Of a stretch of 64,000 bases of DNA, positions 855 to 19,937 are shown piece by piece. The position numbers and the translations under genes are program-made. Under the pieces are notes generated by a model. That model was not told where the DNA came from, did no database searches, and saw only the letters and a program-made list of their open reading frames with translations. Origin of the DNA: Schaalia sp. ORNL0103 (GTDB lineage: Bacteria; Actinomycetota; Actinomycetes; Actinomycetales; Actinomycetaceae). Numbering within the stretch: the stretch's first letter is position 1; every line of letters begins with the position of its first letter. The stretch is taken from the NCBI RefSeq assembly GCF_019429565.1, contig NZ_JAHXSA010000001.1:248001-312000 (forward strand). The letters are read 5' to 3'.

Positions 855-868
855 CGTGGGTTTCTTCC

Positions 869-2737: not shown

Positions 2738-2742
2738 CGAAC

Positions 2743-4170: not shown

Positions 4171-4270
4171 ATGCGAGCAGCGGCACCGTTGCTGCGCGAG
4201 GGCGTCCCACGTGAGCGCCGTCAGCGTTGACAGATCCATCGAGGCCTTTCGTGGCTCGTACAGCGACAGA

Positions 4271-4301
4271 GGGGTGGAAGCGAACAAGTCGCTTCCACCC
4301 C
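4271..4301 (-). terminator. Stem-loop downstream of iolE
   Basis: GGGGTGGAAGCG and its exact complement form a 12-bp stem with a 7-nt loop, 43 bp past the iolE stop on the minus strand. No T run follows, so termination is likely but not certain. The rest of 4171-4343 shows no convincing gene. Confidence 0.55.
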
Positions 4302-4343
4302 CAGTTGATTCGCGCGGGAAGTTGAGGAACCGCGCGAAGCTGC

Positions 4344-5270: not shown

Positions 5271-5346
5271 TGCAGCTCTCCTATGAGTCGCGGTAATAAG
5301 CATCGGCGAATTATGCCGGTGTCACTATTCTACTCAATCTCGTTTG

Positions 5347-5360
5347 ATTGTCCAGACAAA
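5347..5360. promoter_or_regulatory. Putative IolR operator upstream of iolE
   Basis: ATTGTCCAGACAAA is one member of a family of 14-bp palindromes found at promoters of this region. It differs from the published Corynebacterium IolR core KGWCHTRACA at one base. It lies in the 277-bp gap between iolE and iolG, upstream of iolE. Confidence 0.7.
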
Positions 5361-5500
5361 GATGGCGGCTTGGGAGATTTCTCAGGAGGGTTTGTCAGTG
5401 CTGAACGCACGCCCATACGTGGCTGTGGCTGGCGGGAATTGTCGCGGCGGTTCCCAAGGTGGTAACGCATGCTGTAAAGGTCAATGCACTGGATAAGACA

Positions 5501-5533
5501 ATCCCGGTGGGACGCGAGGCGTCCCACCGGGAT
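5501..5533 (-). terminator. Terminator hairpin after iolG
   Basis: A perfect 13-bp stem (5501-5513 with 5521-5533) with a 7-nt loop starts 14 bp past the iolG stop on the minus strand. Only a weak T-rich stretch follows. It separates the iolG transcript from iolE. Confidence 0.65.
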
Positions 5534-5547
5534 TATTCAGCCGAATG

Positions 5548-6537
5548 TCAGGCCAGCGACACGGGCTTGCCGGTCTTCGCCGACTCCGTGGCGGCCTCGG
5601 CCAGGCGCAGAGCCTCGATCGCATCGTCGATGGATGGCGTGGGCTTGGTGCCTGCGACGACCGCGTCGATGAACTCGGTCAGCTCAATGCGGTAGGCGTC
5701 CGCGTAACGCTGCAGGAAGAAGTCCAGGTACGGCTCGGCAGCATCCGTGACCTCGGCATTGGACAGGCGCACGGTGGTGGCGCGGATGTTGTCCGCGTTA
5801 AGCGTGCCCGTCGAACCCTGGGCCTCCAGGCGCTGGTCGTAGCCGGCCGAGCACTTGCGGTTGTTGACGATGGTCGCGACGACGCCGGCGGCGTTCTTCA
5901 GGGTGACCACGGCGGCGTCGAAGTCGCCGGCTTCCCTGATCTCCTCGTTGAAGTTCTGGCCGAAGGCGTGCACCTCGACGATGTCGCCCAGGAAGAAGCG
6001 GGCCATGTCGAAGTCGTGGATGGTCATGTCGCGGAAGATACCGCCGGAAACCTTCACGTACTCGGCCGGGGGAGCGGCAGGGTCACGCGAGATGATGAGC
6101 AGGTTCTCCAGATCGCCGATCTTTCCCTCTTCGAGCTGGGCGTGAACCGCGGCGAAGGAGGGGTCGAAGCGGCGGTTGAAGCCGAACATGACGGGCACGG
6201 ACACGGCGCCCAGCTCGTCGCGAGCGGCCTCGACGTCCTTCATGTCCAGCGCGATGGGCTTCTCGCACAGCACGGCCTTGCCGGCCTTGGCGGCGGCGAG
6301 CAGGTGGGGGATGTGCAGTGGCGTGGGAGAGCCGATAACGACGGCGTCGACGCCTTCGTCGGTGAAGACGGAATCAACGTCGGTCGTGTGACGGGCGCCG
6401 TAGACCTCGGCCAGCTTCTGCGCGGCGTCACCGAAAGGATCTGCGACGATGGCGAGGGTGGCGCCGGGGTGGGCGGCGATGGTCTTGGCGTGGACGTGGC
6501 CGATGCGACCGGCGCCGATGACGGCAATGTTAAGCAT
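5548..6537 (-). CDS. iolG: Inositol 2-dehydrogenase, Gfo/Idh/MocA family
   Basis: IolG oxidises myo-inositol to scyllo-inosose with NAD+, the first step of the pathway. The 329-residue protein has an N-terminal Rossmann fold (VIGAGRIGHVHAKTI at residues 5-19) and the family motif CEKPIALD, whose lysine is catalytic. A GGIFRDMTIHDFDMARFF stretch carries the conserved D...H pair used in catalysis. The start has only a weak AAGAAG ahead of it. It follows the transaldolase gene by 93 bp. Substrate specificity (myo-, scyllo- or chiro-inositol) cannot be read from sequence; the neighbouring iol genes support myo-inositol. Confidence 0.92.
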   Translation of the reverse strand: MLNIAVIGAGRIGHVHAKTIAAHPGATLAIVADPFGDAAQKLAEVYGARHTTDVDSVFTDEGVDAVVIGSPTPLHIPHLLAAAKAGKAVLCEKPIALDMKDVEAARDELGAVSVPVMFGFNRRFDPSFAAVHAQLEEGKIGDLENLLIISRDPAAPPAEYVKVSGGIFRDMTIHDFDMARFFLGDIVEVHAFGQNFNEEIREAGDFDAAVVTLKNAAGVVATIVNNRKCSAGYDQRLEAQGSTGTLNADNIRATTVRLSNAEVTDAAEPYLDFFLQRYADAYRIELTEFIDAVVAGTKPTPSIDDAIEALRLAEAATESAKTGKPVSLA

Positions 6538-6592
6538 CTTTGCTTCTTTCTAGGTGAGAGGGGGTGCTGGAGAGCAGAAAACCTTGACCGGT

Positions 6593-6623
6593 GGTGGCCC
6601 CACACGCGACGTGCGGGGCCACC
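6593..6623 (-). other. Stem-loop between transaldolase and iolG genes
   Basis: A 9-bp stem (6593-6601 with 6615-6623), extended inward by a CACG/CGTG pairing, sits just after the transaldolase stop. It could trim or stabilise the mRNA between the two genes, or partly terminate it. Confidence 0.5.
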
Positions 6624-6630
6624 GGGTGGA

Positions 6631-7707
6631 TCACGGAGCGGGCATAATGACGTCGCGCACCAGGGCGTCGAGGTCAGCGTCTGCCTGAAGGAAGCCGCGC
6701 AGGGTCTTCACGGTGGCGCCGAAGGTGTCGAACTCCTCCGGGGTCATGCCGTCGGGCTCGTAGGCGCGGACGAACTCGGGGATTGAGAGCAGCGTCTTCA
6801 TGATGTCCTCGCGCACCGGGATGTCCATGCGCTCTTCCACCTTGTAGTCCGAGTCGTTGATGAGCTTGGCCCACTTGAACGGCGGGGAGACGACGACGTC
6901 GCCGCCGACGAACTCGGACCAGTGCATGACGTTACGGAACGCTGCAGAGAGCATGCGGGCGCGCAGGCCGCGCTTGCGGAACTCCTGGTAGGCGCGCTTG
7001 AAGGCGGCAATGCCCGCCCACTCGAGGTGACCCGGATCCAGGAACATCTCGTCGCGCGCGGCGACCTCCTTGATCCAGTCGTCGAGGCGGCCCACCATGA
7101 GGGTGACGACCGGGCCCATCTGGGAGGTGTCCTTACCCTCGGCCTCGCGGCGCTTGAGGCCGCGCTCGATGGCCTCGCCCGTGGTGACGGCCTGTGCGAC
7201 GGAGAAGGAGACCGTCACATTGACGGACACGCCGCGGTAGGTGGCCTCTTCGATGGCCTCGATGCCCACCGAGGTGGCGGGGATCTTCACGATGATGTTC
7301 TTGGCGAGGTTGTGGAACTCCTCGGCCTGGTCGGCCAGAGCCTTGGCGGAGCGAGCCAGGCGCGGGTCCGTCTGCATAGACAGGCGACCGTTGCGGCCGT
7401 TCTCGGCCTCGAAAATGGGCTCGAGGAGCTTGGCGGCCTCGAGGGACAGCTCGCGCACGACCTGCCAGCCGATCTCGGACTCGGTGGCGTTGGGCATTTC
7501 CTTGGCGAGCTCCGCGATGCGGGGTAGCCACACGTCGCGACGCTGGTTGATGCAGGTGTAGGCGATGGTCGGGTTGCAGGTAGCACCAACGCCGCCGAAG
7601 GAGATGGACTGCGCCAGCTCACCCGGATCCGAGGAATCGTTCCACAGGGCGGTGGGGGTGTGACGCGCGGCGTCCAGAAGGGGGCCGGGGGTGTACTCGA
7701 TGGACAT
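6631..7707 (-). CDS. Transaldolase-family protein in the iol cluster
   Basis: This 358-residue class I aldolase-fold protein keeps the Schiff-base lysine (NIIVKIPAT, Lys141), the ATCNPTIAY substrate loop near residue 42 and SVNVTVSFSVAQAV near 161. It is longer than fructose-6-phosphate aldolases (about 220) and matches the longer transaldolase branch. It lies between the regulator and iolG and has its own promoter with a perfect IolR core. IolJ, which normally splits 2-deoxy-5-keto-gluconate 6-phosphate, is not in the window, so this protein may fill that role; that is inference. It may instead be a true transaldolase that rebalances sugar phosphates. The ATG is preferred to a GTG that overlaps the AAGGAG site. 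Confidence 0.85.
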   Translation of the reverse strand: MSIEYTPGPLLDAARHTPTALWNDSSDPGELAQSISFGGVGATCNPTIAYTCINQRRDVWLPRIAELAKEMPNATESEIGWQVVRELSLEAAKLLEPIFEAENGRNGRLSMQTDPRLARSAKALADQAEEFHNLAKNIIVKIPATSVGIEAIEEATYRGVSVNVTVSFSVAQAVTTGEAIERGLKRREAEGKDTSQMGPVVTLMVGRLDDWIKEVAARDEMFLDPGHLEWAGIAAFKRAYQEFRKRGLRARMLSAAFRNVMHWSEFVGGDVVVSPPFKWAKLINDSDYKVEERMDIPVREDIMKTLLSIPEFVRAYEPDGMTPEEFDTFGATVKTLRGFLQADADLDALVRDVIMPAP

Positions 7708-7757
7708 GGCGGGAAGCACTCCTTTGTGATTGCTTTCGACTTTCTCCGTCGGAAATA

Positions 7758-7786
7758 AGTCTACGGCGAGCGCTACTGCCTGTCAA
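7758..7786 (-). promoter_or_regulatory. Sigma-70-type promoter of the transaldolase gene
   Basis: Read on the minus strand, a perfect -35 TTGACA (7781-7786) and -10 TAGACT (7758-7763) are separated by exactly 17 bp. The start codon is about 50 nt downstream. Confidence 0.8.
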
Positions 7787-7789
7787 CAG

Positions 7790-7803
7790 TTTGTTAGGAC
7801 AAA
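7790..7803. promoter_or_regulatory. Putative IolR operator at the transaldolase promoter
   Basis: On the minus strand this reads TTTGTCCTAACAAA, a perfect match to the core KGWCHTRACA. It ends 3 bp upstream of the -35 box, a place where a bound repressor would block RNA polymerase. Confidence 0.8.
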
Positions 7804-7817
7804 GTGTCAATGCTTTG

Positions 7818-8585
7818 TCACTGTGCGAAAAGGCTGGCCTCGAAGGAGTATCGCGATGCTCGGTAGATGTGGTCGCCGTACTCCACGATGCGTCCCGAGG
7901 GGTCGTACGTCGTGCGCTGCGTCGTGAGCAGGGCCGCGCCGCGATGCTCGGACAGGAGCTTGGCTTCCTTCGTTGTCGCGCTGCGGGCGCCGATCACCTG
8001 GCGGGCCGAGGCCAGGGTGACCCCGCGCTCGCGCATGAGGTCGTAGAGGGAGCCGGACTCGAGCTCTTGCATGGTCGGCGCGATGTCCGTCGGGATGGCG
8101 TTGGTGAGCACGGCGATTGGCTCGTCGTTGGCAAAACGCGTGCGCTCGATGTGGACGATGAGGGTGCCCTCGGCGATCTTGAGAGCGTCGGCTTCCTGGG
8201 CGTTGGCTGGGCGCGCCTCGTAGCGCTGGATCGTCGTGTGGACCTTGTGGCCGGCGTCGACGAGGTCGCGCATGAGGGAGGTGAGCTCCATGGGGCGGTG
8301 GACGTGACGCGGGGACACGATTGTGCCGACGCCGCGACGGCGCGTGAGCAGGCCGCGATCGACCAGGCGCTGGAGCGCCTGTCGTGCAGTGGGGCGGGAG
8401 ACATGCAGTCGCGCAGCCATCGATAGTTCGTCCTCCAGGCGCGTGTCCGCAGGCAGGGCGCCGGAGTTGATGAGCTGTGCAATGGGCTCCGAAATCTGGA
8501 AGTACAGCGGCACGGGGGAGGAGCGATCCAGCGTGATGTCCGGAACGTAGGGGGTGTTCTCCGAGGCGGGCGATGCTTTGGACAT
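7818..8585 (-). CDS. iolR: GntR-family (HutC/UTRA) transcriptional regulator, iolR-like
   Basis: The 255-residue protein has a winged helix at about residues 20-90 (PLYFQISEPIAQLI, then VSRPTARQALQRLVDRGLLTRRRGVGT) and a C-terminal UTRA effector domain from about 105. GntR-type IolR of Corynebacterium glutamicum represses inositol genes; this gene sits inside the iol cluster, divergent from iolC, so the same role is likely. It probably binds the repeated 14-bp palindromes, including one in its own promoter region. The ATG at 8585 follows GAAGG by 6 nt; upstream in-frame starts would run through the intergenic region. The ligand, presumably an inositol metabolite, is not known. Confidence 0.88.
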   Translation of the reverse strand: MSKASPASENTPYVPDITLDRSSPVPLYFQISEPIAQLINSGALPADTRLEDELSMAARLHVSRPTARQALQRLVDRGLLTRRRGVGTIVSPRHVHRPMELTSLMRDLVDAGHKVHTTIQRYEARPANAQEADALKIAEGTLIVHIERTRFANDEPIAVLTNAIPTDIAPTMQELESGSLYDLMRERGVTLASARQVIGARSATTKEAKLLSEHRGAALLTTQRTTYDPSGRIVEYGDHIYRASRYSFEASLFAQ

Positions 8586-8775
8586 GTCAAACCTTCGTGT
8601 GTGGCGCGACAGCGGTGCTAAATATATAGGGTTACATAGTATCAGCGTTGATGTAAAGGGTGAGAGTGACGCGCTGAAATATATTGTATGGACAAAGTTT
8701 GACGATTGCCTGTCGATAGTGCATCCTTGGAACGTCAGGCTTGCGGGCGACCCCAATGGAGAGGAAGGACCAACG
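8586..8775. promoter_or_regulatory. Divergent control region between iolR and iolC
   Basis: This 190-bp AT-rich region drives both genes. Besides the IolR-like site at 8683-8696 it holds an inverted repeat TTACAT-N13-ATGTAA (8632-8656) and two copies of AAATATAT (8620-8627, 8677-8684). The stretch TATATT at 8680-8685 is a possible -10 for iolC and overlaps the operator. Clean -35 boxes cannot be assigned with confidence. Confidence 0.65.
8683..8696. promoter_or_regulatory. Putative IolR operator between iolR and iolC
   Basis: ATTGTATGGACAAA reads TTTGTCCATACAAT on the other strand. It keeps the TTGT/ACAA arms but departs from the strict core at two central bases. The site at 19649-19662 has the same central bases, so the two may form a weaker subclass. 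Confidence 0.65.
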
Positions 8776-9741
8776 ATGTCCCTTGAACGCCGCTATGTCG
8801 ACATTCTAACAATGGGTCGTTCTGGTATCGACATTTTTCCTCTCCAGGTCGGCGCCCATCTCGAAGACGTTGAGACCTTCGGAAAGTTCCTCGGTGGCAG
8901 CCCGACGAACGTCGCCGTCGCCGCCGCGCGCCTCGGGCACCGCGCCGGCGTCATCACCGGCGTGGGGGACGACCCCTTCGGCCGTTTCGTGACTCGAGAG
9001 CTGGAACGTCTCGGCGTCTCTTCCGACCATGTCGTCACCGTGCGCGACTTCCACACACCCGTGACCTTCGCCGAGCTTTTCCCGCCCGACTCCTTCCCGC
9101 TCTACTTCTATCGAGAACCCAGCGCCCCGGACCTGGAGCTGGGGGAGGACCAGGTGGATTGGAACGCCGTTGAGCGCGCCGGAATCTTCTGGTTCACCGT
9201 GACTGGCCTCTCGCGCGACTCCTCCTTCGGCCTGCACCTGCGCGCCCTCGATCACCGCGACCGTTCCAATGGCGTGACGATCCTCGACCTCGACTACCGC
9301 TCCAACCTGTGGAGCGGTATGGCCCAGGCGCGTTCGCGCGTCGCAGCCGTCCTGTCCCGCGTGGACGTCGCCGTCGGTAACCGCCAGGAATGCGAGATGG
9401 CCGTCGGCGTCTCCGATCCCGAAGGAGCGGCCGACGCCCTCCTCGAACGGGGCGTCAAGCTGGCGATCGTCAAGCAGGGGCCCAAGGGGACCCTCGCCAA
9501 GACCGCCGACGAGCGCGTGTGGGTCGACGCCTGGGACGTGGACGTCGTCAACGGCCTCGGCGCGGGGGATGCCTTTGGAGGCGCGCTCATCCATGGCCTC
9601 GTCGAAGGATGGGACCTCGAGCGCACAATCCGTTACGCCTCGGCCGCGGGAGCCTACGTGTGTTTGCACATCGAATGCTCGACAGCGATGCCCACGTGCG
9701 AGCAGCTGCACGCCTTTGTCGAAACGGGGGTCGTCCCGTAA
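8776..9741 (+). CDS. iolC: 5-dehydro-2-deoxygluconokinase
   Basis: IolC phosphorylates 2-deoxy-5-keto-D-gluconate with ATP. The 321-residue PfkB/ribokinase-family protein has the N-terminal signature GGSPTNVAVAAARLG, then GVGDDPFG, and the C-terminal NGLGAGDAFGGAL with the catalytic aspartate and anion hole. The ATG at 8776 has GGAAGGA 6 nt upstream; a longer frame through the divergent promoter region is not used. It leads the plus-strand iolC-iolB-iolD run. Confidence 0.93.
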   Translation: MSLERRYVDILTMGRSGIDIFPLQVGAHLEDVETFGKFLGGSPTNVAVAAARLGHRAGVITGVGDDPFGRFVTRELERLGVSSDHVVTVRDFHTPVTFAELFPPDSFPLYFYREPSAPDLELGEDQVDWNAVERAGIFWFTVTGLSRDSSFGLHLRALDHRDRSNGVTILDLDYRSNLWSGMAQARSRVAAVLSRVDVAVGNRQECEMAVGVSDPEGAADALLERGVKLAIVKQGPKGTLAKTADERVWVDAWDVDVVNGLGAGDAFGGALIHGLVEGWDLERTIRYASAAGAYVCLHIECSTAMPTCEQLHAFVETGVVP

Positions 9742-9814
9742 CCCACCCGACTCGCCCCAGCCTCGTCCCCTCTTTCATCCAGCGGCACCGATGCCCAACT
9801 TTCAGGAGACTACG

Positions 9815-10687
9815 ATGACTCTTCCCGATATTTACGTTCCCGCCGGCTCCTCCGGCCACGGCAATTTCACCGTCGACATTGATCCCCAGCGTGCCGGTTG
9901 GGCCTTCTCGGGCCTGCGCGTCCTCGTTCTTGAGGCCGGCGCCTCCCAGGTCGTCGAAACCGGCGAGGCTGAGCTCCTCGTCCTGCCCCTCGCCGGCGGC
10001 GCAACCGTCGAGGTCGACGGGCAGACCTTCGAGCTCGAGGGGCGCCGCAGCGTCTTCTCCGGCGTCACCGACTACCTGTACGTCGGACGCGGCAAGACCC
10101 TGACGATCACCTCCGCCCAGGGCGGCCGTTTCGCCTTCCCCTCCGCGATCGCCACCCGCGACATCCCCGTCGCCTACTACCCCAAGAGCCAGGTTCGCAT
10201 CGACCTGCGCGGCGCCGGCGACTGCTCGCGCCAGGTCAACAACTACTCCCTGGCCGTCGAGGGCGTCACCACCTCCCACCTGCTGGCCTGCGAGGTCATC
10301 ACCCCCGGCGGTAACTGGTCCTCCTACCCGGCCCACAAGCACGAGCAGGACTCCGAGGACGAGCGTGAGCTCGAGGAAATCTACTACTTCGAGATCGAAG
10401 ACGGCCCCGAGGGGTCCAAGGGCTTTGGCCTGCACCGCACCTACGGCAGCCCCGGCCGCCCGATCGACCTGTGCTGCGAGGTCCACGACGGCGACGTCGC
10501 CCTCGTGCCCCACGGCTACCACGGCCCCTGCGTCGCGGCCCCCGGCTACGACATGTACTACCTGAACGTCATGGCCGGCCCGAACGAGGACCTCGTGTGG
10601 CTCGCCCCCGACGATCCGGCGCACCACTGGATCCGCGCGACCTGGGAAAACCAGGAAGTAGACCCCCGCCTCCCCATGAACAAGTAA
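9815..10687 (+). CDS. iolB: 5-deoxy-glucuronate isomerase
   Basis: IolB converts 5-deoxy-D-glucuronate to 2-deoxy-5-keto-D-gluconate, the substrate of IolC. The 290-residue product is a double-cupin metal enzyme: WSSYPAHKHEQD and ELEEIYYFEIE supply the metal-site histidines and glutamate of the second cupin, followed by ALVPHGYHGPCVA and YYLNVMAGP. Its length matches the family. The ATG follows CAGGAGA by 6 nt. It lies 73 bp after iolC and 21 bp before iolD on the same strand, with no terminator between them. Confidence 0.94.
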   Translation: MTLPDIYVPAGSSGHGNFTVDIDPQRAGWAFSGLRVLVLEAGASQVVETGEAELLVLPLAGGATVEVDGQTFELEGRRSVFSGVTDYLYVGRGKTLTITSAQGGRFAFPSAIATRDIPVAYYPKSQVRIDLRGAGDCSRQVNNYSLAVEGVTTSHLLACEVITPGGNWSSYPAHKHEQDSEDERELEEIYYFEIEDGPEGSKGFGLHRTYGSPGRPIDLCCEVHDGDVALVPHGYHGPCVAAPGYDMYYLNVMAGPNEDLVWLAPDDPAHHWIRATWENQEVDPRLPMNK

Positions 10688-10708
10688 GAAAGCCCGAAAG
10701 GACTACCC

Positions 10709-12616
10709 ATGAGCAAAGAAGCCTACAAGGGAACCGTGCGCCTGACGGTCGCGCAGGCAATCATTCGCTTCCTGTCCAACCAGTACACCGAGCGCGACGG
10801 CGTCGAGCACCGCCTCATCGCGGGCGCCTTCGGTATTTTCGGCCACGGTAATGTCGCCGGCATCGGTCAGGCCCTGCTGCAGAACGAGATTGCGCCCGCC
10901 GAGGGCGAGAACCCGATGCCCTACATCATGCCCCGCAACGAGCAGGGTGCCGTCCACGCGGCCACGGCATTCGCCAAGACGACGAACCGCCTACAGACCT
11001 GGATGACGACCGCGTCGATTGGCCCCGGCTCGCTCAACATGGTCACGGGCGCCGCGACGGCGACGACCAACCGCCTGCCCGTCCTCATCTTCCCCTCCGA
11101 CCAGTTCGCGACCCGCATCCCGGACCCGGTCCTCCAGCAGCTCGAGGATCCGACCTCGCTCGACGTGACCGTCAATGACGCGTTCCGTCCCGTGTCGCGC
11201 TTCTTCGACCGCATCAACCGTCCCGAGCAGCTGATTCCCTCGCTGCTCAACGGCATGCGCGTCCTGACCGACCCGGCCGAAACCGGTGCCGTCACGATCG
11301 CTCTGCCTCAGGACGTTCAGGCCGAGGCCTACGACTGGCCGGTCGAGTTCTTCACCAAGCGCGTGTGGCACGTGCGCCGTCCCCCGGCCGAGCGTGCCGC
11401 CATCGAGCGCGCGGTCGCCAAGATCCGCGCCGCCAAGCGCCCCCTCATCATCGCCGGCGGCGGCGTCATCTACTCCGAGGCCTCGGAGGAGCTGCGCGCA
11501 TTCGCGGCCTCGACCGGTATCCCGGTCGCCGACACGCAGGCCGGTAAGGGTGCTATCAACTGCGATCACCCCTGCTCCGTGGGCGGCGTCGGCTCCACCG
11601 GCGGCGACTCGGGCAACCACCTCGCCGACAAGGCCGACCTGATCATCGGCGTGGGCACGCGCTACTCCGACTTCACCACGGCCTCGAAGACGCAGTTCAA
11701 GAATCCCGATGTCTCCTTCGTCAACATCAACATCACGCCCTTCGACGCCGCCAAGCAGAGCGCCGAGATGGTCGTGGCCGACGCGCGCGAGGCGCTCGTG
11801 GCGCTGACCGAGGAGCTGGCCGACTACCGCGTCGACGAGGCCTACACCGCCGAGATCGCCGCCGAGCGCGAGGCCTGGGCCGCCAAGGTCGAGCAGTGCT
11901 ACCACGTGGGCAACGCCCCGCTGCCCGCTCAGACCGAGGTCTTCGGCGCCCTCAACGAGCTGATGGGCGACGAGGACGTGGTCATCAACGCCGCCGGCTC
12001 GATGCCCGGCGACCTGCAGGCCCTGTGGCAGGCCAAGACCCCCGTCCAGTACCACGTCGAGTACGCATTCTCCTGCATGGGCTACGAGGTCCCGGCCGCC
12101 ATGGGCGTCAAGCTGGCGCGTCCGCAGTCCGAGGTCGTCTCGATCGTCGGCGACGGCACCTACCAGATGCTTCCGATGGAGCTGGCCACGGTTGCCCAGG
12201 AGGGCATCAAGGTCATCTACGTCCTGCTGCAGAACTACGGCTTCGCGTCGATCGGCGCCCTGTCCGAGTCGCGCGGCTCCCAGCGCTTCGGCACGAAGTA
12301 CCGCCAGCGTGGGACCGGCTCGCACCTGGAGGATACGGACACGATCGCTGGCGTGGACATAGCGGCGAACGCACGCTCGTGGGGCATCGACGTGCTCGAG
12401 GTCCACACGATCGAGGAGTTCAAGGAGGCCTACAAGACTGCCGCTGCCTCGGATCGCGCGACCATGATCCACATCGAGACCGACCTGATGGGCCCCAACC
12501 CGCCCGGATCCTCCTGGTGGGACGTGGCGATCTCGGAGGTGTCCGTGCTCGAGTCGACGCAGCGTGCGTACGAGGACTACCGCAGTGATCGCAAGCCGCA
12601 GCGTCACTACCTGTGA
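10709..12616 (+). CDS. iolD: 3D-(3,5/4)-trihydroxycyclohexane-1,2-dione acylhydrolase
   Basis: IolD is a thiamine-diphosphate enzyme that opens the ring of the diketone made by IolE to give 5-deoxy-glucuronate. The 635-residue protein has the three-domain layout of acetolactate-synthase-like enzymes. HAATAFAKTTNRLQ lies in the N-terminal Pyr domain, PLIIAGGGVIYSEA in the central domain, and the ThDP/Mg motif begins at GDGTYQMLPMEL in the C-terminal domain and ends at LLQNYGFASIG. The length is normal for IolD. It ends the iolC-iolB-iolD operon, followed by a strong hairpin. Confidence 0.95.
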   Translation: MSKEAYKGTVRLTVAQAIIRFLSNQYTERDGVEHRLIAGAFGIFGHGNVAGIGQALLQNEIAPAEGENPMPYIMPRNEQGAVHAATAFAKTTNRLQTWMTTASIGPGSLNMVTGAATATTNRLPVLIFPSDQFATRIPDPVLQQLEDPTSLDVTVNDAFRPVSRFFDRINRPEQLIPSLLNGMRVLTDPAETGAVTIALPQDVQAEAYDWPVEFFTKRVWHVRRPPAERAAIERAVAKIRAAKRPLIIAGGGVIYSEASEELRAFAASTGIPVADTQAGKGAINCDHPCSVGGVGSTGGDSGNHLADKADLIIGVGTRYSDFTTASKTQFKNPDVSFVNINITPFDAAKQSAEMVVADAREALVALTEELADYRVDEAYTAEIAAEREAWAAKVEQCYHVGNAPLPAQTEVFGALNELMGDEDVVINAAGSMPGDLQALWQAKTPVQYHVEYAFSCMGYEVPAAMGVKLARPQSEVVSIVGDGTYQMLPMELATVAQEGIKVIYVLLQNYGFASIGALSESRGSQRFGTKYRQRGTGSHLEDTDTIAGVDIAANARSWGIDVLEVHTIEEFKEAYKTAAASDRATMIHIETDLMGPNPPGSSWWDVAISEVSVLESTQRAYEDYRSDRKPQRHYL

Positions 12617-12632
12617 TGAGCTGAGTGTGTGA

Positions 12633-12664
12633 GGGGCGGCCCCGGAGAAATCCGGGGCCGCCCC
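12633..12664 (+). terminator. GAAA-loop terminator hairpin after iolD
   Basis: A perfect 14-bp GC-rich stem closed by a GAAA tetraloop starts 16 nt after the iolD stop. There is no T run, as is common for actinobacterial terminators. Confidence 0.7.
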
Positions 12665-12820
12665 GCTCACGTATGCCTCGGTGCGTGAGTAGCACCGGCG
12701 TGAAACGCCTCGTGAAACGCCTCTTGGAACGGCGCGTTGGCTGGGGCGGGGAGTTGTCGATGGGGCGTGTCCAATAGACGGGACAATTCGGTCCCTGTTT
12801 GCGCTGATGTTGCAGATGTC

Positions 12821-12863
12821 GCGACATAGGTCCTAGGAACATGCTACACTTTGTCCTAACAAA
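12821..12863 (+). promoter_or_regulatory. iolA promoter with overlapping IolR operator
   Basis: A -10 TACACT (12845-12850) follows a -35-like GCGACA (12821-12826) at 18 bp. The palindrome TTTGTCCTAACAAA (12850-12863), a perfect core match, overlaps the last base of the -10 and covers the probable start of transcription, so binding should block initiation. The rest of the 291-bp gap after iolD holds nothing clear. Confidence 0.75.
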
Positions 12864-12907
12864 GTTGTTTCGCCATTCGTGGATGAATGGGAAGAAAGGT
12901 AAAACCA

Positions 12908-14410
12908 ATGACAATCAACCTGTGGGTCAACGGCGAAGAGTACGTCGCTCACTCTGAGAAGACTATCGACATCGAAAACCCTGCCACCGGTAAGGTCGTC
13001 GACCAGCTCGCCCTGGCCGACAAGCATTGCCTCGACCACGTCGTCGAGATCGCCCGCAACGCGCAGAAGGAATGGGCTCGAACCGCCCTGGCCAAGCGCG
13101 TGGACATCATGTTCAAGTTCCGCCAGCTCGTCATCGATCACCAGGATGAGATCGCCGACGCCATCGTGCGCGAGGGTGGCAAGACCCACGGCGACGCCCT
13201 CGGCGAGATCGCCCGTGGCCGCGAGACCATCGACTTTGCGTGTGGCATCAACGCTGCCCTCAAGGGCGAGTTCACCGATCAGGCCTCGACCGGCGTGGAC
13301 GTGCACACCCTGCGTCAGCCCGTCGGTGTCGTCGCCGGCATCTGCCCCTTCAACTTCCCGGCCATGGTCCCCATGTGGATGCACCCGGTCGCCCTGGCCA
13401 CTGGCAACGCCTTCATCCTCAAGGTTGCCTCGACCGTTCCCAGCGCCTCGCTGATCATTGCTCGCCTCTACAAGGAGGCGGGCCTGCCCGACGGCCTGTT
13501 CAACGTCATCGCCGGCGATCGCCACCTGGTCACCGACATCCTCACTCACCCCGGCATTGATGCCATCTCCTTCGTTGGCTCCACCCCGGTCGCCCACATC
13601 GTGCAGGACACGGGCGTGGCCCACGGCAAGCGCGTCCAGGCTCTGGGTGGCGCAAACAATCACGCGATCGTCATGCCCGACGCGGACATCGAGTTCGCCG
13701 CGCAGCACATTAGCGCCGGCGCCTTCGGCGCTGCCGGCCAGCGCTGCATGGCCCTGCCCGTGATCGTTGCCGTCGGAGGCGTCGAGGAGAAGCTGGTTCC
13801 CGCGATCAAGGCTCGCGCTGAGAAGATCGTCGTCGGCCCCGGCACCGACCCGGCCTCTGAGATGGGTCCGGTCATCACCCGTTCCTCCCAGGAGCGCATC
13901 ACCAAGTGGATCGACGAGGCCGAGGCGAGGGGCGCGAACATCGTCCTCGACGGCCGTGGCTACCGCCCCGAGGGCGAGGAATACGCGGATGGCTTCTGGC
14001 TGGCCCCCACCATCATCGACGGTGTGGATCGCAACCTGAGCGTCTACTGCGAAGAGGTCTTCGGCCCGGTCCTGGTCGTCGTGCACGCTGACACCTACGA
14101 GGAAGCCATTGAGATCGTGAACTCCTCCGAGTTCGGCAACGGCTCCGCGATCTTCACCTCCGACGGTGACACGGCCCGCCACTTCGTCGTCGATGTCGAG
14201 GCCGGCATGGTCGGTGTCAATGTGCCGATCCCTGTTCCGGTCGCCTACTACTCCTTCGGTGGCTGGAAGGAGTCGCTGCTGGGCGACACCCACATTCACG
14301 GCCCCGAGGGCGTGCGCTTCTACACGAAGGCCAAGGTCGTCACGACCCGTTGGCCCAAGCGTGGTGAGAAGGTTGGTTACGTCGGCATGAGCTTCCCGAC
14401 GAACGGCTGA
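12908..14410 (+). CDS. iolA: Methylmalonate-semialdehyde dehydrogenase (CoA-acylating)
   Basis: IolA oxidises malonate semialdehyde to acetyl-CoA (and methylmalonate semialdehyde to propionyl-CoA) with NAD+ and CoA, the last iol step. The 500-residue aldehyde dehydrogenase shows GVVAGICPFNFPAMVPMW, the NAD-site segment ISFVGSTPVAHIV, LGGANNHAIVMPDAD, and the nucleophile cysteine in AAGQRCMALP, all typical of the MmsA branch. The ATG at 12908 lies 8 nt after a GAAAGG; an ATG 21 nt upstream is less well placed. It has its own IolR-type promoter, apart from iolCBD. Confidence 0.94.
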   Translation: MTINLWVNGEEYVAHSEKTIDIENPATGKVVDQLALADKHCLDHVVEIARNAQKEWARTALAKRVDIMFKFRQLVIDHQDEIADAIVREGGKTHGDALGEIARGRETIDFACGINAALKGEFTDQASTGVDVHTLRQPVGVVAGICPFNFPAMVPMWMHPVALATGNAFILKVASTVPSASLIIARLYKEAGLPDGLFNVIAGDRHLVTDILTHPGIDAISFVGSTPVAHIVQDTGVAHGKRVQALGGANNHAIVMPDADIEFAAQHISAGAFGAAGQRCMALPVIVAVGGVEEKLVPAIKARAEKIVVGPGTDPASEMGPVITRSSQERITKWIDEAEARGANIVLDGRGYRPEGEEYADGFWLAPTIIDGVDRNLSVYCEEVFGPVLVVVHADTYEEAIEIVNSSEFGNGSAIFTSDGDTARHFVVDVEAGMVGVNVPIPVPVAYYSFGGWKESLLGDTHIHGPEGVRFYTKAKVVTTRWPKRGEKVGYVGMSFPTNG

Positions 14411-14430
14411 GCTTGACAGTCTCCTTATGG

Positions 14431-14455
14431 GGGGTGGGCGCATTGCGTCCACCCC
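14431..14455 (+). terminator. Terminator hairpin after iolA
   Basis: A GGGGTGGGCG / CGTCCACCCC stem with one G-U pair and a short loop lies 20 nt past the iolA stop, followed by TCCTTTGT. Confidence 0.65.
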
Positions 14456-14470
14456 TCCTTTGTATGTGGC

Positions 14471-14484
14471 TTTGTCGTAACAAA
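14471..14484. promoter_or_regulatory. Putative IolR operator 1 of the inositol transporter
   Basis: TTTGTCGTAACAAA differs from the core by one base. It ends 17 bp upstream of the -35 box of the transporter promoter. Confidence 0.72.
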
Positions 14485-14501
14485 CTGTTTGGCAGCGCCG
14501 C

Positions 14502-14530
14502 TTGAAATCATGAATATAGCGCGTTAAACT
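14502..14530 (+). promoter_or_regulatory. Promoter of the inositol transporter gene
   Basis: A -35 TTGAAA (14502-14507) and -10 TAAACT (14525-14530) are spaced by 17 bp. The promoter lies between two IolR-like sites. Confidence 0.75.
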
Positions 14531-14566
14531 AAGTGAGTCAGCAAAGTTGCGATACTCGATCGAATG

Positions 14567-14580
14567 TTTGTTAAGTCAAA
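14567..14580. promoter_or_regulatory. Putative IolR operator 2 of the inositol transporter
   Basis: On the minus strand this reads TTTGACTTAACAAA, whose core TGACTTAACA matches the published consensus fully. It lies about 30 bp inside the predicted transcript and 96 bp from operator 1, near nine helical turns, a spacing that would allow looping. Confidence 0.72.
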
Positions 14581-14584
14581 CGCG

Positions 14585-14815
14585 AGATCTGCCAAATGCT
14601 TGACCGCTGCCGAAAGGGGGTAGTGGAGAGTGTGTGGCCAGTCGATGCACAGGGACGATGTCGTCAAGCAATCAGTGTCGAGATCCCAGCGATTCCACGA
14701 TCGTGGGCGAGGTATCCTCGCTCCCTGGGAGTGGGACTTGCTCAGCCGTTAGGCCGACCAGGGTGAAGCGCTCTTCATCCGTACAGCTCCAAAGAAGAAG
14801 CAATAGGAGAAACAC
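14585..14815 (+). other. Long 5' leader of the transporter mRNA
   Basis: From the promoter at 14502-14530 the leader is close to 280 nt. It holds a 12-bp palindrome CCACGATCGTGG (14695-14706) and a small GCGAGG/CCTCGC hairpin next to it (14707-14721). No known riboswitch fold and no convincing leader peptide were recognised. The ribosome site TAGGAGA precedes the start. Confidence 0.4.
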
Positions 14816-16432
14816 ATGTCAAACACTCTAACGATTGACGACTACACGCCCGATAAGGTGCGTGACCTCGTCGCGACCACCCCGGCCTCGGGCAAGAAGT
14901 GCTCCCTGGGCGCCATCGCGGCCGTCGCGACGCTTGGCTCGCTCCTCTTCGGCTACGATACCGGCGTCATCGCGGGCGCCCTGCCCTACATGTACATGCC
15001 CGGAAACGCCGGCGGCCTGCACATGACCACCTTCGAAGAGGGCTGGGTCGGTGGTCTGCTGTGCATCGGCGCCGCCGCCGGCGCCTTCTTTGGCGGTCGC
15101 CTCTCTGACCGCTACGGCCGCCGCCACAACATTACTCTGCTGGCCATCGTGTTCCTCTTCGGCGCCATCGGCTGTGCGATCGCCCCGAACATCTGGGTCC
15201 TGTACCTCGCTCGTGTCATCCTCGGCTTCGCCGTCGGTGGAGCCTCCGCGACCGTTCCCGTCTTCCTCGGCGAAACCGCGCCCAAGCGCCTGCGTGGCGT
15301 TCTGGTCGCCACCGACCAGATGATGATCGTCTTCGGCCAGTTCCTGGCCTTCTCCATGAACGCCGTCATCGCCCGCTGGCAGGGCGGCCCGACCGTCACG
15401 CTGACCGGTGACGCCGTGGACGCGTCTGGCCACGTGCTCGGCCAGGCTGGAACCTCCGTCGCGTGGGAGACAGTTAGCGCCGCCGTCAACATCGCCGAGG
15501 TCACCAGCGCCGGTAATGGCCTGACCTGGCGCTACATGCTGATCCTGTGCTCGCTGCCCGCCATCGCGCTGTGGGTCGGTATCCGCATGATGCCGGAGTC
15601 CTCCCGCTGGTACGCCGCGAACCTGCGCATCGTCGAGGCCATCGGCTCCCTCAAGCGCGTGCGTGACGAGAAGAAGGACGACGTCGCCGGCGAGCTCAAC
15701 GAGATGCTCGAGGTCCAGCGCGCTGAGTCCAAGCAGGAGAAGTGGTCGCTCTCCCAGATCCTCAAGGTTAAGTGGGCCCGCAAGCTCCTCTACATCGGTA
15801 TCATCCTGGGCATCGCCGACCAGCTGACCGGCATCAACACGGCCATGTACTACACGCCGAAGATCCTCAACGCTGCCGGCGTTCCCATGGAAGACGCCAT
15901 CACCCTGAATGTCGTCTCCGGTGGTATTTCCGCGATCGGCTCCGCCGTCGGCCTGTGGCTCGTCGCCCGCTTCGCTCGCCGCCACGTTGGCATGTACCAG
16001 GAGCTCGGCATCACGATCTCCCTGGCAGCACTGTCCGCTGTGTTCGCGATCTTCATCAGCCCCTACCTGGACGCAGATGGCAACATCTCCGGCGCCCCGA
16101 ACTTCGCCCCCTGGCTGGTTCTTGGCATCGTCTGCCTCTTCGTGTTCATCAAGCAGTCCGGCACCGTGACCTGGGTCCTCGTCTCCGAGATCTACCCGGC
16201 CGCCGTCCGCGGCAGTGCCCTCGGTATCGCGGTGGGCACCCTGTGGCTCGCCAATGCGCTGGTCTCCGTCATCTTCCCGCCGCTCATGGCGACCGTCGGT
16301 GGGGCAGGCACGTACGCGATCTTCGCGGCCATTAACTTCCTCTCCTTCCTCTTCTACTGGAAGGTCGTCCCCGAGACGAAGTTCCACTCGCTGGAGGAGC
16401 TGGAGCTGAAGTTCCAGAAGGATTACTCCTGA
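14816..16432 (+). CDS. iolT: MFS sugar porter, inositol transporter type
   Basis: This 538-residue, 12-helix member of the sugar porter family should import myo-inositol with protons. Signatures are clear: FGYDTGVIAGALPYM in helix 1, GGRLSDRYGRR (93-103) in the loop between helices 2 and 3, PESSRWYAANLR before the central loop, ADQLTGINTAMYYTP in helix 7 and PETKFHSLEELE near the C-terminus. A loop of about 45 residues between helices 5 and 6 is longer than usual. The gene is framed by two IolR-like sites, which supports inositol as substrate; other sugars cannot be excluded. Confidence 0.88.
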   Translation: MSNTLTIDDYTPDKVRDLVATTPASGKKCSLGAIAAVATLGSLLFGYDTGVIAGALPYMYMPGNAGGLHMTTFEEGWVGGLLCIGAAAGAFFGGRLSDRYGRRHNITLLAIVFLFGAIGCAIAPNIWVLYLARVILGFAVGGASATVPVFLGETAPKRLRGVLVATDQMMIVFGQFLAFSMNAVIARWQGGPTVTLTGDAVDASGHVLGQAGTSVAWETVSAAVNIAEVTSAGNGLTWRYMLILCSLPAIALWVGIRMMPESSRWYAANLRIVEAIGSLKRVRDEKKDDVAGELNEMLEVQRAESKQEKWSLSQILKVKWARKLLYIGIILGIADQLTGINTAMYYTPKILNAAGVPMEDAITLNVVSGGISAIGSAVGLWLVARFARRHVGMYQELGITISLAALSAVFAIFISPYLDADGNISGAPNFAPWLVLGIVCLFVFIKQSGTVTWVLVSEIYPAAVRGSALGIAVGTLWLANALVSVIFPPLMATVGGAGTYAIFAAINFLSFLFYWKVVPETKFHSLEELELKFQKDYS

Positions 16433-16455
16433 AACGCAGTGATCTGAACGCGTGA

Positions 16456-16488
16456 GCCCGGTGGGGCGGCTTGGCCGCCCCACCGGGC
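16456..16488 (+). terminator. Terminator hairpin after the inositol transporter
   Basis: A perfect 15-bp GC stem (16456-16470 with 16474-16488) with a 3-nt loop follows the stop by 23 nt. No T run is present. The next gene begins 30 bp later. Confidence 0.68.
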
Positions 16489-16518
16489 GCTCGCGTACCA
16501 TCGAGACGAGGAGAGGTG

Positions 16519-17865
16519 ATGGTAAGAGGTGCAACGCGCAACGCGAGCGGTGCGGCTCGTCCGCCGGTTGGTCGCGGTGAGGCACGTATGCGCGCATTCG
16601 CCTACCTGACGGGCATCACTATCGGTCTCATCGATGGCGTCCTGGCCATTCATGTCTGGTCTGCGGGTTTCGCCCACGCCATCGGCTTCTTCATTGCTGC
16701 CTTATCGCTCCCATCATTGCTGTCTGCGATCCTCACCCCGTCTCTGTCCGAGCACATCGGGCGCCGCATCCCGAATTGCGTGGGAGCCTTGACGCTCGCC
16801 GCGGGATCTCTCGTGATTGCCTCGACCTGCGCCGTCGCCGTGGGTGCTGGTGGAAGTGGGGTGGGCGTGGTTGTCGCCTACTGCATTGGATACGCCCTCC
16901 TCGGGCTGGGATATGGGGCCCTGTGGTCGCTGTTGCCTCGCATGGCGCACGAGCTGTCCCTGCGAGGTCACGCCCGCCTCGTGCCTCGTGCCAACTCCCT
17001 TCTTGGCGTCGGCGGGGGAGTGGGGATTGCCCTCGGCTTCGTGCACGGTGTGGGGCCGCTCCTGCCCTCCGTGACGCTCGTCGGCTTTTCTCTCGCCCTT
17101 CTTATCGCGGCCTCGCTCTTGCCCGAATCTCCCGCCTGGTACGCCTCCAAGGGGCGCGAGGTCGACGCCTTCCTGGCGCTCAAGTCTCTGCATGGTGCGC
17201 TCGAGGCCTCGGTCGAGATCGACCACGTGCGTCTCGACGCGGAGATGGCCCGCGAGCAGCACCCCCTGCACCTGCGCGACGTCGCCATCCCCCAGGTGCG
17301 CTCTGCGCTGGCGACGGCCCTCGCCCTTGTGTGTGTGCAGGAGGCGCCCCTCGTCGTTGCGGTCATCATCTTTACGCCGGCGTTGCTCGCCGGTGTGGGG
17401 GCGGACGGTTGGATGCAGTTGACCTTTGCTACTGGCGTTGTGCTCATCGCGTTGGCGACCCTGACCGCTGTCAGCCGCGTTGGCACCCACCGTTTTCTGC
17501 GCGCGTCGCTGGGGTCCGTGGGGGCTGTCCTGTCCTCGATGATTGGCGTCGCTGTCTTCTCTGTCAACGGGGAGATTGGCCCCGTTGCGATGCTGATCGT
17601 TGCCCTGCTCATGATGGCTGCGCAGCGCATCTGGATCTACCCTGCCTGTCACGGCGCGATAGATCCGCGTATTCCGCCGTGGCTCGTTACCTGGCAGCGC
17701 CAGGCAGTCATCACCCTCAACGTGGTGGCGCGCACCTTCGCGCTTATCCTGGGCGGCTTCACAGTCTTCCTTCCCGGCGGCGTGGCTCTCGGCGTCTACT
17801 TCGTCCTGCAGTGCATCGCCCTGATCCTTCTGTTGGTGCGCCTGCCTCACGAGTATGCGGAGTAG
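16519..17865 (+). CDS. Divergent MFS transporter-like protein
   Basis: This 448-residue membrane protein resembles sugar porters but has lost key positions. It keeps a short SEHIGRRIP instead of the full D-R-x-GRR loop motif, PESPAWYASKGR before a central cytoplasmic stretch, and about 12 hydrophobic segments. The usual helix 7 substrate motif is not recognisable. The ATG at 16519 lies 5 nt after AGGAG; a second ATG at 16588 would remove a charged leader. It lies directly after the inositol transporter and before the IolR-controlled dehydrogenase, so a role in inositol or related polyol transport or sensing is possible but unproven. No operator lies at its own 5' end. Confidence 0.7.
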   Translation: MVRGATRNASGAARPPVGRGEARMRAFAYLTGITIGLIDGVLAIHVWSAGFAHAIGFFIAALSLPSLLSAILTPSLSEHIGRRIPNCVGALTLAAGSLVIASTCAVAVGAGGSGVGVVVAYCIGYALLGLGYGALWSLLPRMAHELSLRGHARLVPRANSLLGVGGGVGIALGFVHGVGPLLPSVTLVGFSLALLIAASLLPESPAWYASKGREVDAFLALKSLHGALEASVEIDHVRLDAEMAREQHPLHLRDVAIPQVRSALATALALVCVQEAPLVVAVIIFTPALLAGVGADGWMQLTFATGVVLIALATLTAVSRVGTHRFLRASLGSVGAVLSSMIGVAVFSVNGEIGPVAMLIVALLMMAAQRIWIYPACHGAIDPRIPPWLVTWQRQAVITLNVVARTFALILGGFTVFLPGGVALGVYFVLQCIALILLLVRLPHEYAE

Positions 17866-17911
17866 GGGGCCTCGGCCTCGTCTATGTCAGGTCATCATCA
17901 GATATAGGTCA

Positions 17912-17947
17912 TTTGTCCTGACAAATGGTCTGCTCGTTGGCTATTAT
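17912..17947 (+). promoter_or_regulatory. Dehydrogenase promoter with IolR operator on the -35
   Basis: ATTTGTCCTGACAAAT (17911-17926) is a 16-bp inverted repeat with a perfect IolR core. It covers the -35 CTGACA (17918-17923), which is 18 bp from the -10 TATTAT (17942-17947). The start codon is about 56 nt downstream. Confidence 0.8.
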
Positions 17948-18003
17948 AAAGATGTCCGTGATCGATGAAGTACGCGGCATCCAACCACTACGAGGTGAAG
18001 CCC

Positions 18004-19146
18004 ATGAGCACCGAAACTCCCGTTATTCCCGACACTATGCGCGCGGCCGTCCTACGCGACTACGACAAGGGCCTCCAGGTCGAAACCATCCGCACGCCGC
18101 GCCCCAAGGCCGGTGAAGTCCTCATCAAGGTGACCGCGTGTGGCCTGTGTCACTCCGACCTCCATGTCATCGGAGGTGCCATTGCCTTCCCGCTGCCCGC
18201 CGTCCTCGGTCACGAGGTCGCTGGTGTCATCGTCGAGCTCGGCCCCGGCACTGAACACACCGGCCTCGAGGTTGGCCAGCAGGTCGCCGGCGGCTTCCTC
18301 ATGCCCTGTGGCCAGTGCCGCCACTGCGCCGCCGGCCGCGACGAGCTGTGTGAGCCCTTCTTCGAGCTCAACCGCCTCAAGGGTGTCCTCTATGACGGTA
18401 CGACCCGCCTGTACTCCCTCGATGGCGAACCCATCCAGATGTACTCGATGGGTGGCCTGGCCGAGTACTCGGTCGTCCCCGCGACCGCCCTGGCCCCCGT
18501 GCCTGAGGGTGTCGACCCGGTGTCGTCGGCGATCCTGGGCTGCGCCGCCATGACCGGCTACGGTGCCGTCCGACGCGGCGCCGACATCAAGTACGGTGAG
18601 ACCGTTGCCGTCGTCGCCGTGGGCGGCGTGGGCTCGAACATCGTGCAGATCGCCCGCGCCTTCGGGGCCTCCCAGGTTATCGCCATCGATGTCGCAGACG
18701 ACAAGCTCGAGGCCGTCAAGGCTTTCGGTGCGACCGCGACGATTAACTCCATGACCCAGGATGCCCGCGAAGAGGTCCTCAAGCTGACGAATGGTCGCGG
18801 CGTTGATGTCTCCTTCGAGGCTCTGGGCATTCCCTCCACGTGGAGCACCGCTCTTGACGTTCTCGCCGACGGCGGACGCATGGTGCCGATCGGCCTGGGT
18901 GCCGGCCGCCAGACCGCCGAGGTTGAGATCAACCGGACCGTGCGCCGCTCCCAGTCGATCCTCGGATCCTACGGCGCGCGCACGCGCCAGGACCTGCCGG
19001 CGGTCGTTGACCTGGCCGCGCGCGGCGTCATCAACTACGACGACCTGGTCACGCGCCGCTTCTCGCTCGACGAGGCGGCCGCCGGATACGAGGCACTGCG
19101 CAATCGCGCCGTCCAGGGTCGCGCTGTCGTCGACATGTCTCTGTGA
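18004..19146 (+). CDS. Zinc-dependent alcohol dehydrogenase, IolR-controlled
   Basis: This 380-residue medium-chain dehydrogenase has the catalytic zinc ligands in ACGLCHSD (Cys46) and GHE (His70-Glu71), the four-cysteine structural zinc loop CGQCRHCAAGRDELC (102-116), and a Rossmann motif VAVGGVGSN. It should oxidise an alcohol or polyol with NAD(P)+. The operator over its -35 box ties it to inositol metabolism, so the substrate may be an inositol isomer, a methylated inositol or an aldehyde side product; that is inference. The ATG follows GAGGTGAAG; an upstream in-frame start is less likely. Confidence 0.88.
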   Translation: MSTETPVIPDTMRAAVLRDYDKGLQVETIRTPRPKAGEVLIKVTACGLCHSDLHVIGGAIAFPLPAVLGHEVAGVIVELGPGTEHTGLEVGQQVAGGFLMPCGQCRHCAAGRDELCEPFFELNRLKGVLYDGTTRLYSLDGEPIQMYSMGGLAEYSVVPATALAPVPEGVDPVSSAILGCAAMTGYGAVRRGADIKYGETVAVVAVGGVGSNIVQIARAFGASQVIAIDVADDKLEAVKAFGATATINSMTQDAREEVLKLTNGRGVDVSFEALGIPSTWSTALDVLADGGRMVPIGLGAGRQTAEVEINRTVRRSQSILGSYGARTRQDLPAVVDLAARGVINYDDLVTRRFSLDEAAAGYEALRNRAVQGRAVVDMSL

Positions 19147-19166
19147 GACCTGACGGCGCATAGGGG

Positions 19167-19204
19167 CAGGCCCACTCACCCCGGGGTTCGGGGGAGTGGG
19201 CCTG
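19167..19204 (+). terminator. Terminator of the dehydrogenase gene
   Basis: CAGGCCCACTC and its exact complement (19194-19204) form an 11-bp stem with a further CCCC/GGGG pairing inside, followed by ACTTATTGTTTG. It starts 20 nt after the stop. Confidence 0.75.
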
Positions 19205-19250
19205 ACTTATTGTTTGTGGCGATCCGCGCGGGATCGATCTGACGTAAAGG

Positions 19251-19499
19251 TCAGCGCGTCATCATGTTGAGGATGCCGTACACGCCCACGAAGGCGGCGA
19301 CGGTCGTGATAATGATGGCGGAGCTGAGGATCACGGTCGAGGCCGTGGCGGCGCCGACGATGGCCATCGTGATGCCGGCAATGAAGACAGCGGTCAGTGC
19401 GAAGGCGAAGCTCAGATTGTTGGCGAGGGAGGTATCGGAGGCCTGCTCGGAACGGACGGACTGAGCGGCAATCGTGGTCTCGCGGACGAGGGTTTCCAT
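19251..19499 (-). CDS. Small two-helix membrane protein (82 aa)
   Basis: The product has a polar N-terminus of about 28 residues (many Glu, Ser, Gln) and two hydrophobic segments (about 29-50 and 54-76), ending in MMTR. No family was recognised. The ATG at 19499 follows AGGAGA closely. Upstream on the minus strand are a good promoter, an IolR-like operator touching the -35 and a structured leader of about 115 nt. It is therefore a candidate member of the inositol regulon. Possible roles include a helper of a transporter or a small stress protein; nothing in the sequence decides between them. Confidence 0.72.
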   Translation of the reverse strand: METLVRETTIAAQSVRSEQASDTSLANNLSFAFALTAVFIAGITMAIVGAATASTVILSSAIIITTVAAFVGVYGILNMMTR

Positions 19500-19500
19500 G

Positions 19501-19575
19501 GTGTCTCCTGGGTGTGATTGAAAGTCAATGTGTGTGGGAGACACGGATAAAGGCCGTGTGTGCCCACACGGCCTT
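19501..19575 (-). promoter_or_regulatory. Structured leader able to hide the ribosome site
   Basis: Directly before the 82-aa gene, GTGTCTCC pairs with GGAGACAC (19537-19544 with 19501-19508). The second arm contains the Shine-Dalgarno, so this 8-bp stem would block ribosome access; its 28-nt loop holds a small ATTGA/TCAAT hairpin. Just upstream is a perfect 11-bp hairpin with a 4-nt loop (19550-19575) followed by TTT on the minus strand, which looks like a weak terminator. Confidence 0.6.
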
Positions 19576-19620
19576 GTGAATTGAAGGGCGTCGAACCGCT
19601 GGGGCTCGTTCCTTCCGACG

Positions 19621-19662
19621 GGTATAAGCCTATTCGTCGCGCCGGTCAATTGTCCATACAAA
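19621..19662 (-). promoter_or_regulatory. Promoter and IolR-like operator of the 82-aa gene
   Basis: On the minus strand, -35 TTGACC (19644-19649) and -10 TATACC (19621-19626) are 17 bp apart. ATTGTCCATACAAA (19649-19662) abuts the -35. A nearby everted pair of half sites, GACAAA (19683-19688) and TTTGTC (19697-19702), may add to binding. Confidence 0.7.
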
Positions 19663-19834
19663 AACGAGTGAACTGTGGAATGGACAAAGGTCTTCATTTG
19701 TCAGTAATTCTAATGTCGGTCGGGCGCGTGACCTGCGAGTCTATGCCTGCCTGGCTGTCAGGGGGCAGGGCCAGGTGGTAGAAGCCGCCCGACTGGAGGG
19801 TGGCGTGAGGCCTGCTGGGGTGGAGGTGGCTGCG

Positions 19835-19937
19835 GTGCCGGTGGGCGGTGGCAGGGCCAGGGCGGGCCTCGAGATCGATCACTCCGAGCGGAGCTCGCGT
19901 GTGGCGATCTCGCGGGCGGGCCGCCGCCCACCGGCAC
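19835..19937. other. Nested inverted repeats, possible structured RNA
   Basis: In the 510-bp gap between 19499 and 20010 an outer 14-bp inverted repeat (19835-19848 with 19924-19937) encloses an 8-bp pair (CGAGATCG 19870-19877 with CGATCTCG 19905-19912), which encloses a CTCCG/CGGAG hairpin (19882-19893). The nested design could be a structured RNA or a large terminator after the glycosyltransferase at 20010. No convincing gene was found in this gap. Confidence 0.5.

Follow-up and report, generated by a model that had tools for sequence, protein, structure and literature searches.

Introduction

In Corynebacterium glutamicum, the genes for inositol transport and degradation are repressed by the GntR-type regulator IolR (PMC9603128); at iolT1, IolR no longer binds once its operator is mutated (PMC5948850). 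The IolR of Sinorhizobium is RpiR-like, to go by a title cited in PMC9603128. Here, we analyzed a stretch of 64 kb from Schaalia sp. ORNL0103 (contig NZ_JAHXSA010000001.1, positions 248,001 to 312,000), called the window below, which carries an inositol catabolic (iol) gene cluster with a GntR-type gene of its own, iolR, and eight palindromic sites that are very probably the operators of its product. The IolR of Bacillus subtilis is of the DeoR type; it and the Sinorhizobium protein share name and function with the regulator studied here, as repressors of inositol catabolism, but belong to protein families other than the GntR/UTRA type of the window.

It is well supported that the regulon is of a known kind, the C. 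glutamicum type, and what is new is a well-delimited case with mapped targets. As in C. glutamicum, a GntR family regulator is tied to iol genes, and the operators lie at iol and iolT promoters; unlike there, the predicted targets include a transaldolase-like gene, an alcohol dehydrogenase gene, and a small open reading frame (ORF). The locus defines, by sequence, a testable inositol-use regulon of human-associated Actinomycetaceae and yields an operator model of the GntR-type IolR that spans the class, and it ties an uncharacterised transaldolase-like enzyme, a candidate for a gap-filling aldolase, to inositol catabolism. Otherwise, it would be an ordinary local catabolic on/off switch.

Predicted operators of the inositol cluster

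A sequence-only reading of the window had noted eight copies of a 14-bp palindrome and attributed them to an IolR regulon. The copies are present where it placed them, with zero to three mismatches to TTTGTCCTAACAAA, and are listed here as predicted IolR operators with their matrix scores:

5347..5360, minus strand: ATTGTCCAGACAAA on the plus strand; 77 bp upstream of iolE; score 21.6
7790..7803, minus strand: matches the consensus perfectly; 83 bp ahead of the transaldolase-like gene; score 23.5
8683..8696, no strand assigned: in the divergent iolR/iolC gap; score 20.4
12850..12863, plus strand: matches the consensus perfectly; 45 bp ahead of iolA; score 23.5
14471..14484, plus strand: upstream member of the iolT pair; score 21.5
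14567..14580, plus strand: downstream member of the iolT pair; score 20.3
17912..17925, plus strand: the copy of highest symmetry; 39 bp ahead of the start of the zinc-dehydrogenase ORF; score 23.9
19649..19662, minus strand: roughly 150 bp ahead of the small ORF; score 20.4

With up to three mismatches to TTTGTCCTAACAAA allowed, the window contains nine strand matches, against a mean of 0.42 and a maximum of 2 in 100 shuffles, and all nine fall on these eight places, which are spread from 5.3 to 19.7 kb. The core element is a longer dyad, WTTGTC-N2-GACAAW, and in the dyad matrix, columns 2–5 and their mirror columns carry about 1.7–2 bits each, the flanks almost nil. All eight predicted operators are intergenic, and each precedes a transcription unit of the inositol-catabolic cluster, whose genes are the following:

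4344..5270, minus strand: iolE, myo-inosose-2 dehydratase (TIGR04379, over cut-off)
5548..6537, minus strand: iolG, inositol 2-dehydrogenase (TIGR04380, over cut-off)
6631..7707, minus strand: tal, transaldolase/fructose-6-phosphate (F6P) aldolase family protein (PF00923)
7818..8585, minus strand: iolR, GntR-type regulator of the HutC subfamily, 255 amino acids (GntR helix-turn-helix PF00392 and UTRA PF07702, over cut-off)
8776..9741, plus strand: iolC, 5-dehydro-2-deoxygluconokinase, with no fused aldolase domain (TIGR04382, over cut-off)
9794..10687, plus strand: iolB, 5-deoxy-glucuronate isomerase (TIGR04378, over cut-off)
10709..12616, plus strand: iolD, trihydroxycyclohexane-1,2-dione acylhydrolase (TIGR04377, over cut-off)
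12908..14410, plus strand: iolA, methylmalonate-semialdehyde dehydrogenase (MMSDH; TIGR01722, over cut-off)
14816..16432, plus strand: iolT-like sugar porter (TIGR00879, over cut-off)
16585..17865, plus strand: mfs2, second transporter of the major facilitator superfamily, without an operator of its own (PF00083)
17965..19146, plus strand: adh, zinc-dependent alcohol dehydrogenase family protein (PF08240, PF00107)
19251..19499, minus strand: ORF of 82 amino acids, the small membrane protein of the sequence-only reading (no family match)

The calls for iolE, iolG, iolC, iolB, and iolD were made with NCBIfam equivalog cut-offs, and tal and iolG likely form one transcription unit. The regulator gene, flanked by iolE, iolG, iolC, iolB, iolD, and iolA, sits within the cluster. 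The closest solved structure to its product is 2ra5, followed by YvoA, 2p19, and DasR. The chain 2p19, presumably a C. glutamicum protein and possibly its IolR, aligns to the UTRA domain at 91 bits. DasR and YvoA/NagR, also of the HutC subfamily, share the domain order and are clear sequence relatives, with a similarity below that of 2ra5; they have amino-sugar ligands and other binding sites.

Full matches to KGWCHTRACA had also been reported for four of the sites (7790, 12850, 14567, and 17912), and we find them there, so that the dyad is compatible with this motif. KGWCHTRACA as the putative C. glutamicum IolR core is taken from the sequence-only reading, and the motif appears in none of the papers that our literature search listed. 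A fifth match, which that reader did not mention, lies on the minus strand at 17885–17894 (TGACCTGACA), 17 bp before the operator at 17912, and may be an additional weak site at adh. By itself, KGWCHTRACA is weak evidence, as its five matches, against 1.5 expected, are near chance.

Confinement within the genome

The genome (2.35 Mb in four contigs) was searched with two patterns, and the matches were then scored with the eight-site matrix. Exact WTTGTNNNNACAAW occurs at seven places, all of them inside the 14-kb cluster, and the eighth site, at 14567, deviates from it by one mismatch; when one mismatch is allowed, 45 places are found, against 26 for a reversed-pattern control. The top eight matrix scores among the genome matches (20.3–23.9) are those of the eight cluster sites, and the next best score is 18.7. 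By our reasoning, a place with two or more mismatches to the palindromic pattern cannot score above 20, and the set should therefore be complete at that level. The matrix was derived from the eight sites and favors them, and independent evidence therefore weighs more. The comparison of coding with upstream regions that the sequence-only reading had suggested did not refute the regulon, the eight best-scoring sites of the genome being all intergenic and all in the cluster.

Regulon members outside the cluster (scores 14–18.7) were considered and rejected, since these matches are scattered before unrelated genes or within coding sequence and show no coherent theme; genes near them include, with names read from the translations, those for a metal-type binding protein, an alcohol dehydrogenase, and a LutA-like protein, besides others.

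Conservation in the genus and the class

Independent evidence comes from relatives. In 20 loci of the genus, where a site had to reach a score of 14 and lie no farther than 300 bp upstream of the gene, sites precede iolR in 19 of 20, iolC in 14 of 14, tal in 13 of 13, iolE in 7 of 8, and iolA in 11 of 14 cases, and no such site precedes iolD (0/14), iolB (0/13), or the fucosidase operon (fuc, 0/8). Only 1% of shuffled iolR upstream regions attain this score. The one genome of this set that lacks the iolR-side site (G001) shows no further iol gene across the 20 kb inspected. At a score of at least 20, the genus loci and the window together have 51 places, against 0.05 with column-permuted matrices.

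The motif also tracks iolR across the class. A matrix-free count of short dyads upstream of 49 class-wide iolR orthologues (identity about 42–53%) gave TGTC-N2-GACA as the commonest, in 23 of the 49, and in loci of Streptomyces, Knoellia, and Luteipulveratus, the dyad lies in the iolR/iolG gap. In the genus genome G007, iolA and iolT have been relocated to about 70 kb from iolR, and both have kept their sites: iolA is preceded by one operator at a distance of about 38 bp, and iolT by a pair. The attribution to an IolR regulon is therefore supported by the confinement of the sites to the cluster and by a motif that accompanies both iolR orthologues, down to about 42–50% identity, and the relocated iolA–iolT. 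The membership of adh and the small ORF is based on two genomes, that of the window and that of the close relative L085, in which the small ORF and its operator are found as well.

Promoter geometry and a model of the switch

In the region 4200–19900, we found 10 sigma-70-like promoters, against 1.6 expected from shuffles, and five of them are on or adjoin operators, so that the earlier statement that the palindrome overlaps or abuts a −35 or −10 element holds for several sites. The operator at 5347 encloses the −35-like hexamer TGGACA of TGGACA-N16-TAGAAT, and that at 17912 encloses the CTGACA of CTGACA-N18-TATTAT, likewise −35-like. A −10-like hexamer is touched twice: the operator at 8683 overlaps the TATATT of the iolR-side promoter TCGTCA-N16-TATATT, and the first base of the operator at 12850 is, by our own reading, the last base of a TACACT. 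The operator at 19649, again by our own reading, abuts TTGACC-N17-TATACC. Two operators lie upstream of the −35: TTGACA-N17-TAGACT begins 3 bp past the one at 7790, and the one at 14471 is 17 bp upstream of the iolT promoter, TTGAAA-N17-TAAACT, which is flanked on its other side by the operator at 14567. The start-to-start distance of this pair is 96 bp in the window (14471–14580), in L085 (8715–8824), and at the relocated iolT of G007 (L110, 2804–2913). This spacing of about nine helical turns, found in three genomes, suggests a repression loop at iolT, and the geometry as a whole suits repression by occlusion, possibly with a loop at iolT.

Taken from the sequence, the eight palindromes are very probably the operators of a cluster-encoded IolR-type GntR/UTRA repressor that would be autoregulated and released by an inositol-derived ligand. 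IolR would bind WTTGTCNNGACAAW, presumably as a dimer, and in the absence of inositol it would sit on or beside the −35 or −10 of each iol transcription unit and block RNA polymerase. The predicted target units are iolE; tal-iolG; iolR and iolC-iolB-iolD; iolA; iolT-mfs2; adh; and the small ORF. The two operators around the iolT promoter may act through looping, and the site in the iolR/iolC gap would allow iolR to regulate itself. Binding of an inositol-derived ligand to the UTRA domain would then release IolR from the DNA.

Alternative explanations

Some observations weigh against this model. Several members of the class with a regulator of 42–53% identity lack a good upstream site (for example, L129, L131, L147, L150, L162, and L163), and iolT and adh are without an operator in several relatives that possess these genes; iolT and adh are therefore less conserved as targets than iolR, iolC, tal, iolA, and iolE. 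It is also conceivable that the sites serve some other regulator, whether from the GntR/HutC group or one that controls carbon metabolism globally, and merely share the cluster with iolR. The genome does encode other GntR-type proteins, of low similarity, and the binding by IolR is a prediction; however, confinement to the iol cluster does not fit a global regulator, and the sites accompany iolR orthologues throughout the class and precede iolR itself in nearly all genus loci, which makes a foreign regulator highly improbable.

Another question is the sign of the regulation, as the operators at 7790 and 14471 are located 3–17 bp upstream of the −35 and not over it, a position from which IolR could activate instead of repress. 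Since several other operators overlap promoter hexamers, and since a repressor role is reported for the C. glutamicum protein (PMC9603128), we consider activation at some of these promoters very unlikely. As to chance, AT-rich palindromes could arise in promoter regions that are themselves AT-rich within a GC-rich genome, and the weaker genome-wide matches that we inspected (scores 14–19) are indeed mostly intergenic. However, the number of matches in the window is far above that in shuffled sequence, permuted matrices yield next to nothing at scores of at least 20, and the sites in G007 moved along with their genes, so that chance has hardly any probability left. Repression by IolR thus accounts best for the eight sites.

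The transaldolase-like protein

The tal gene is closely associated with inositol catabolism: among 200 Actinomycetaceae genomes, it was found (E <1e-100) in 89 of the 100 with iolD and in 1 of the 100 without, and this single genome (G018) has a decaying cluster with an in-frame stop in its tal copy. The product scores below all NCBIfam transaldolase cut-offs, with 128.9 bits at best against 367 for NF002881. The Schiff-base lysine is retained in all tal orthologues, and residue 112 is an invariant glutamine in place of the glutamate of the aligned solved transaldolases. By both the curated cut-off and the active-site glutamate, the protein therefore falls outside transaldolase EC 2.2.1.2. Glutamine at this active-site position marks an aldolase subfamily. 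Aldolases inside the transaldolase family are known from the F6P aldolases (PMC3962226). Our literature search on a transaldolase in inositol catabolism returned nothing relevant.

The window genome has no Cgl0159-type protein, which relatives carry between iolC and iolB. Cgl0159 is the usual actinobacterial aldolase for 2-deoxy-5-keto-gluconate 6-phosphate (DKGP). The only class II aldolase of the window genome is presumably the glycolytic one, and tal may thus supply the aldolase that the strain otherwise seems to lack. More specifically, it is plausible, though less likely than not, that the tal product is a class I aldolase that splits DKGP into malonate semialdehyde and dihydroxyacetone phosphate and replaces IolJ/Cgl0159 in Schaalia odontolytica-type genomes; if true, this would be an enzyme function new to the transaldolase fold. 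A strict replacement of Cgl0159 by tal was rejected: 77 of the 100 iolD-containing genomes have both genes, 12 have tal only, 10 have Cgl0159 only, and 1 has neither, a distribution that is suggestive and shows no clear complementarity.

Neighboring genes and further iolR loci

At 35–4122, genes of an ABC (ATP-binding cassette) sugar transporter and an alpha-L-fucosidase gene adjoin the iol cluster, and the same neighborhood occurs in several other genomes of the genus. This fucosidase/ABC operon was rejected as a regulon member, as it has one weak site (score 13.2) near the binding-protein gene and, as mentioned, no fuc site was found in eight relatives.

In five loci of the genus (L086, L090, L091, L092, and L093, from genomes G023, G018, G020, G021, and G001), an intact iolR stands beside broken or missing iol genes. 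The ratio of nonsynonymous to synonymous substitution rates (dN/dS) of these iolR copies is 0.05–0.13 in pairwise comparison with L085, and four of the five have kept their own operator; judging from these sequences, the repressor appears to outlive the pathway. In L113 (G010), a genome without iolD, two copies of ATTGTCCTAACAAA lie within a tandemly duplicated gene, which looks like a coincidence in a repeat. Finally, iolR genes 100% and 97% identical to that of the window are found in two public records, entered as Xylanimonas cellulosilytica 352_XCEL and Sanguibacter keddieii 250_SKED, respectively, names that look wrong.

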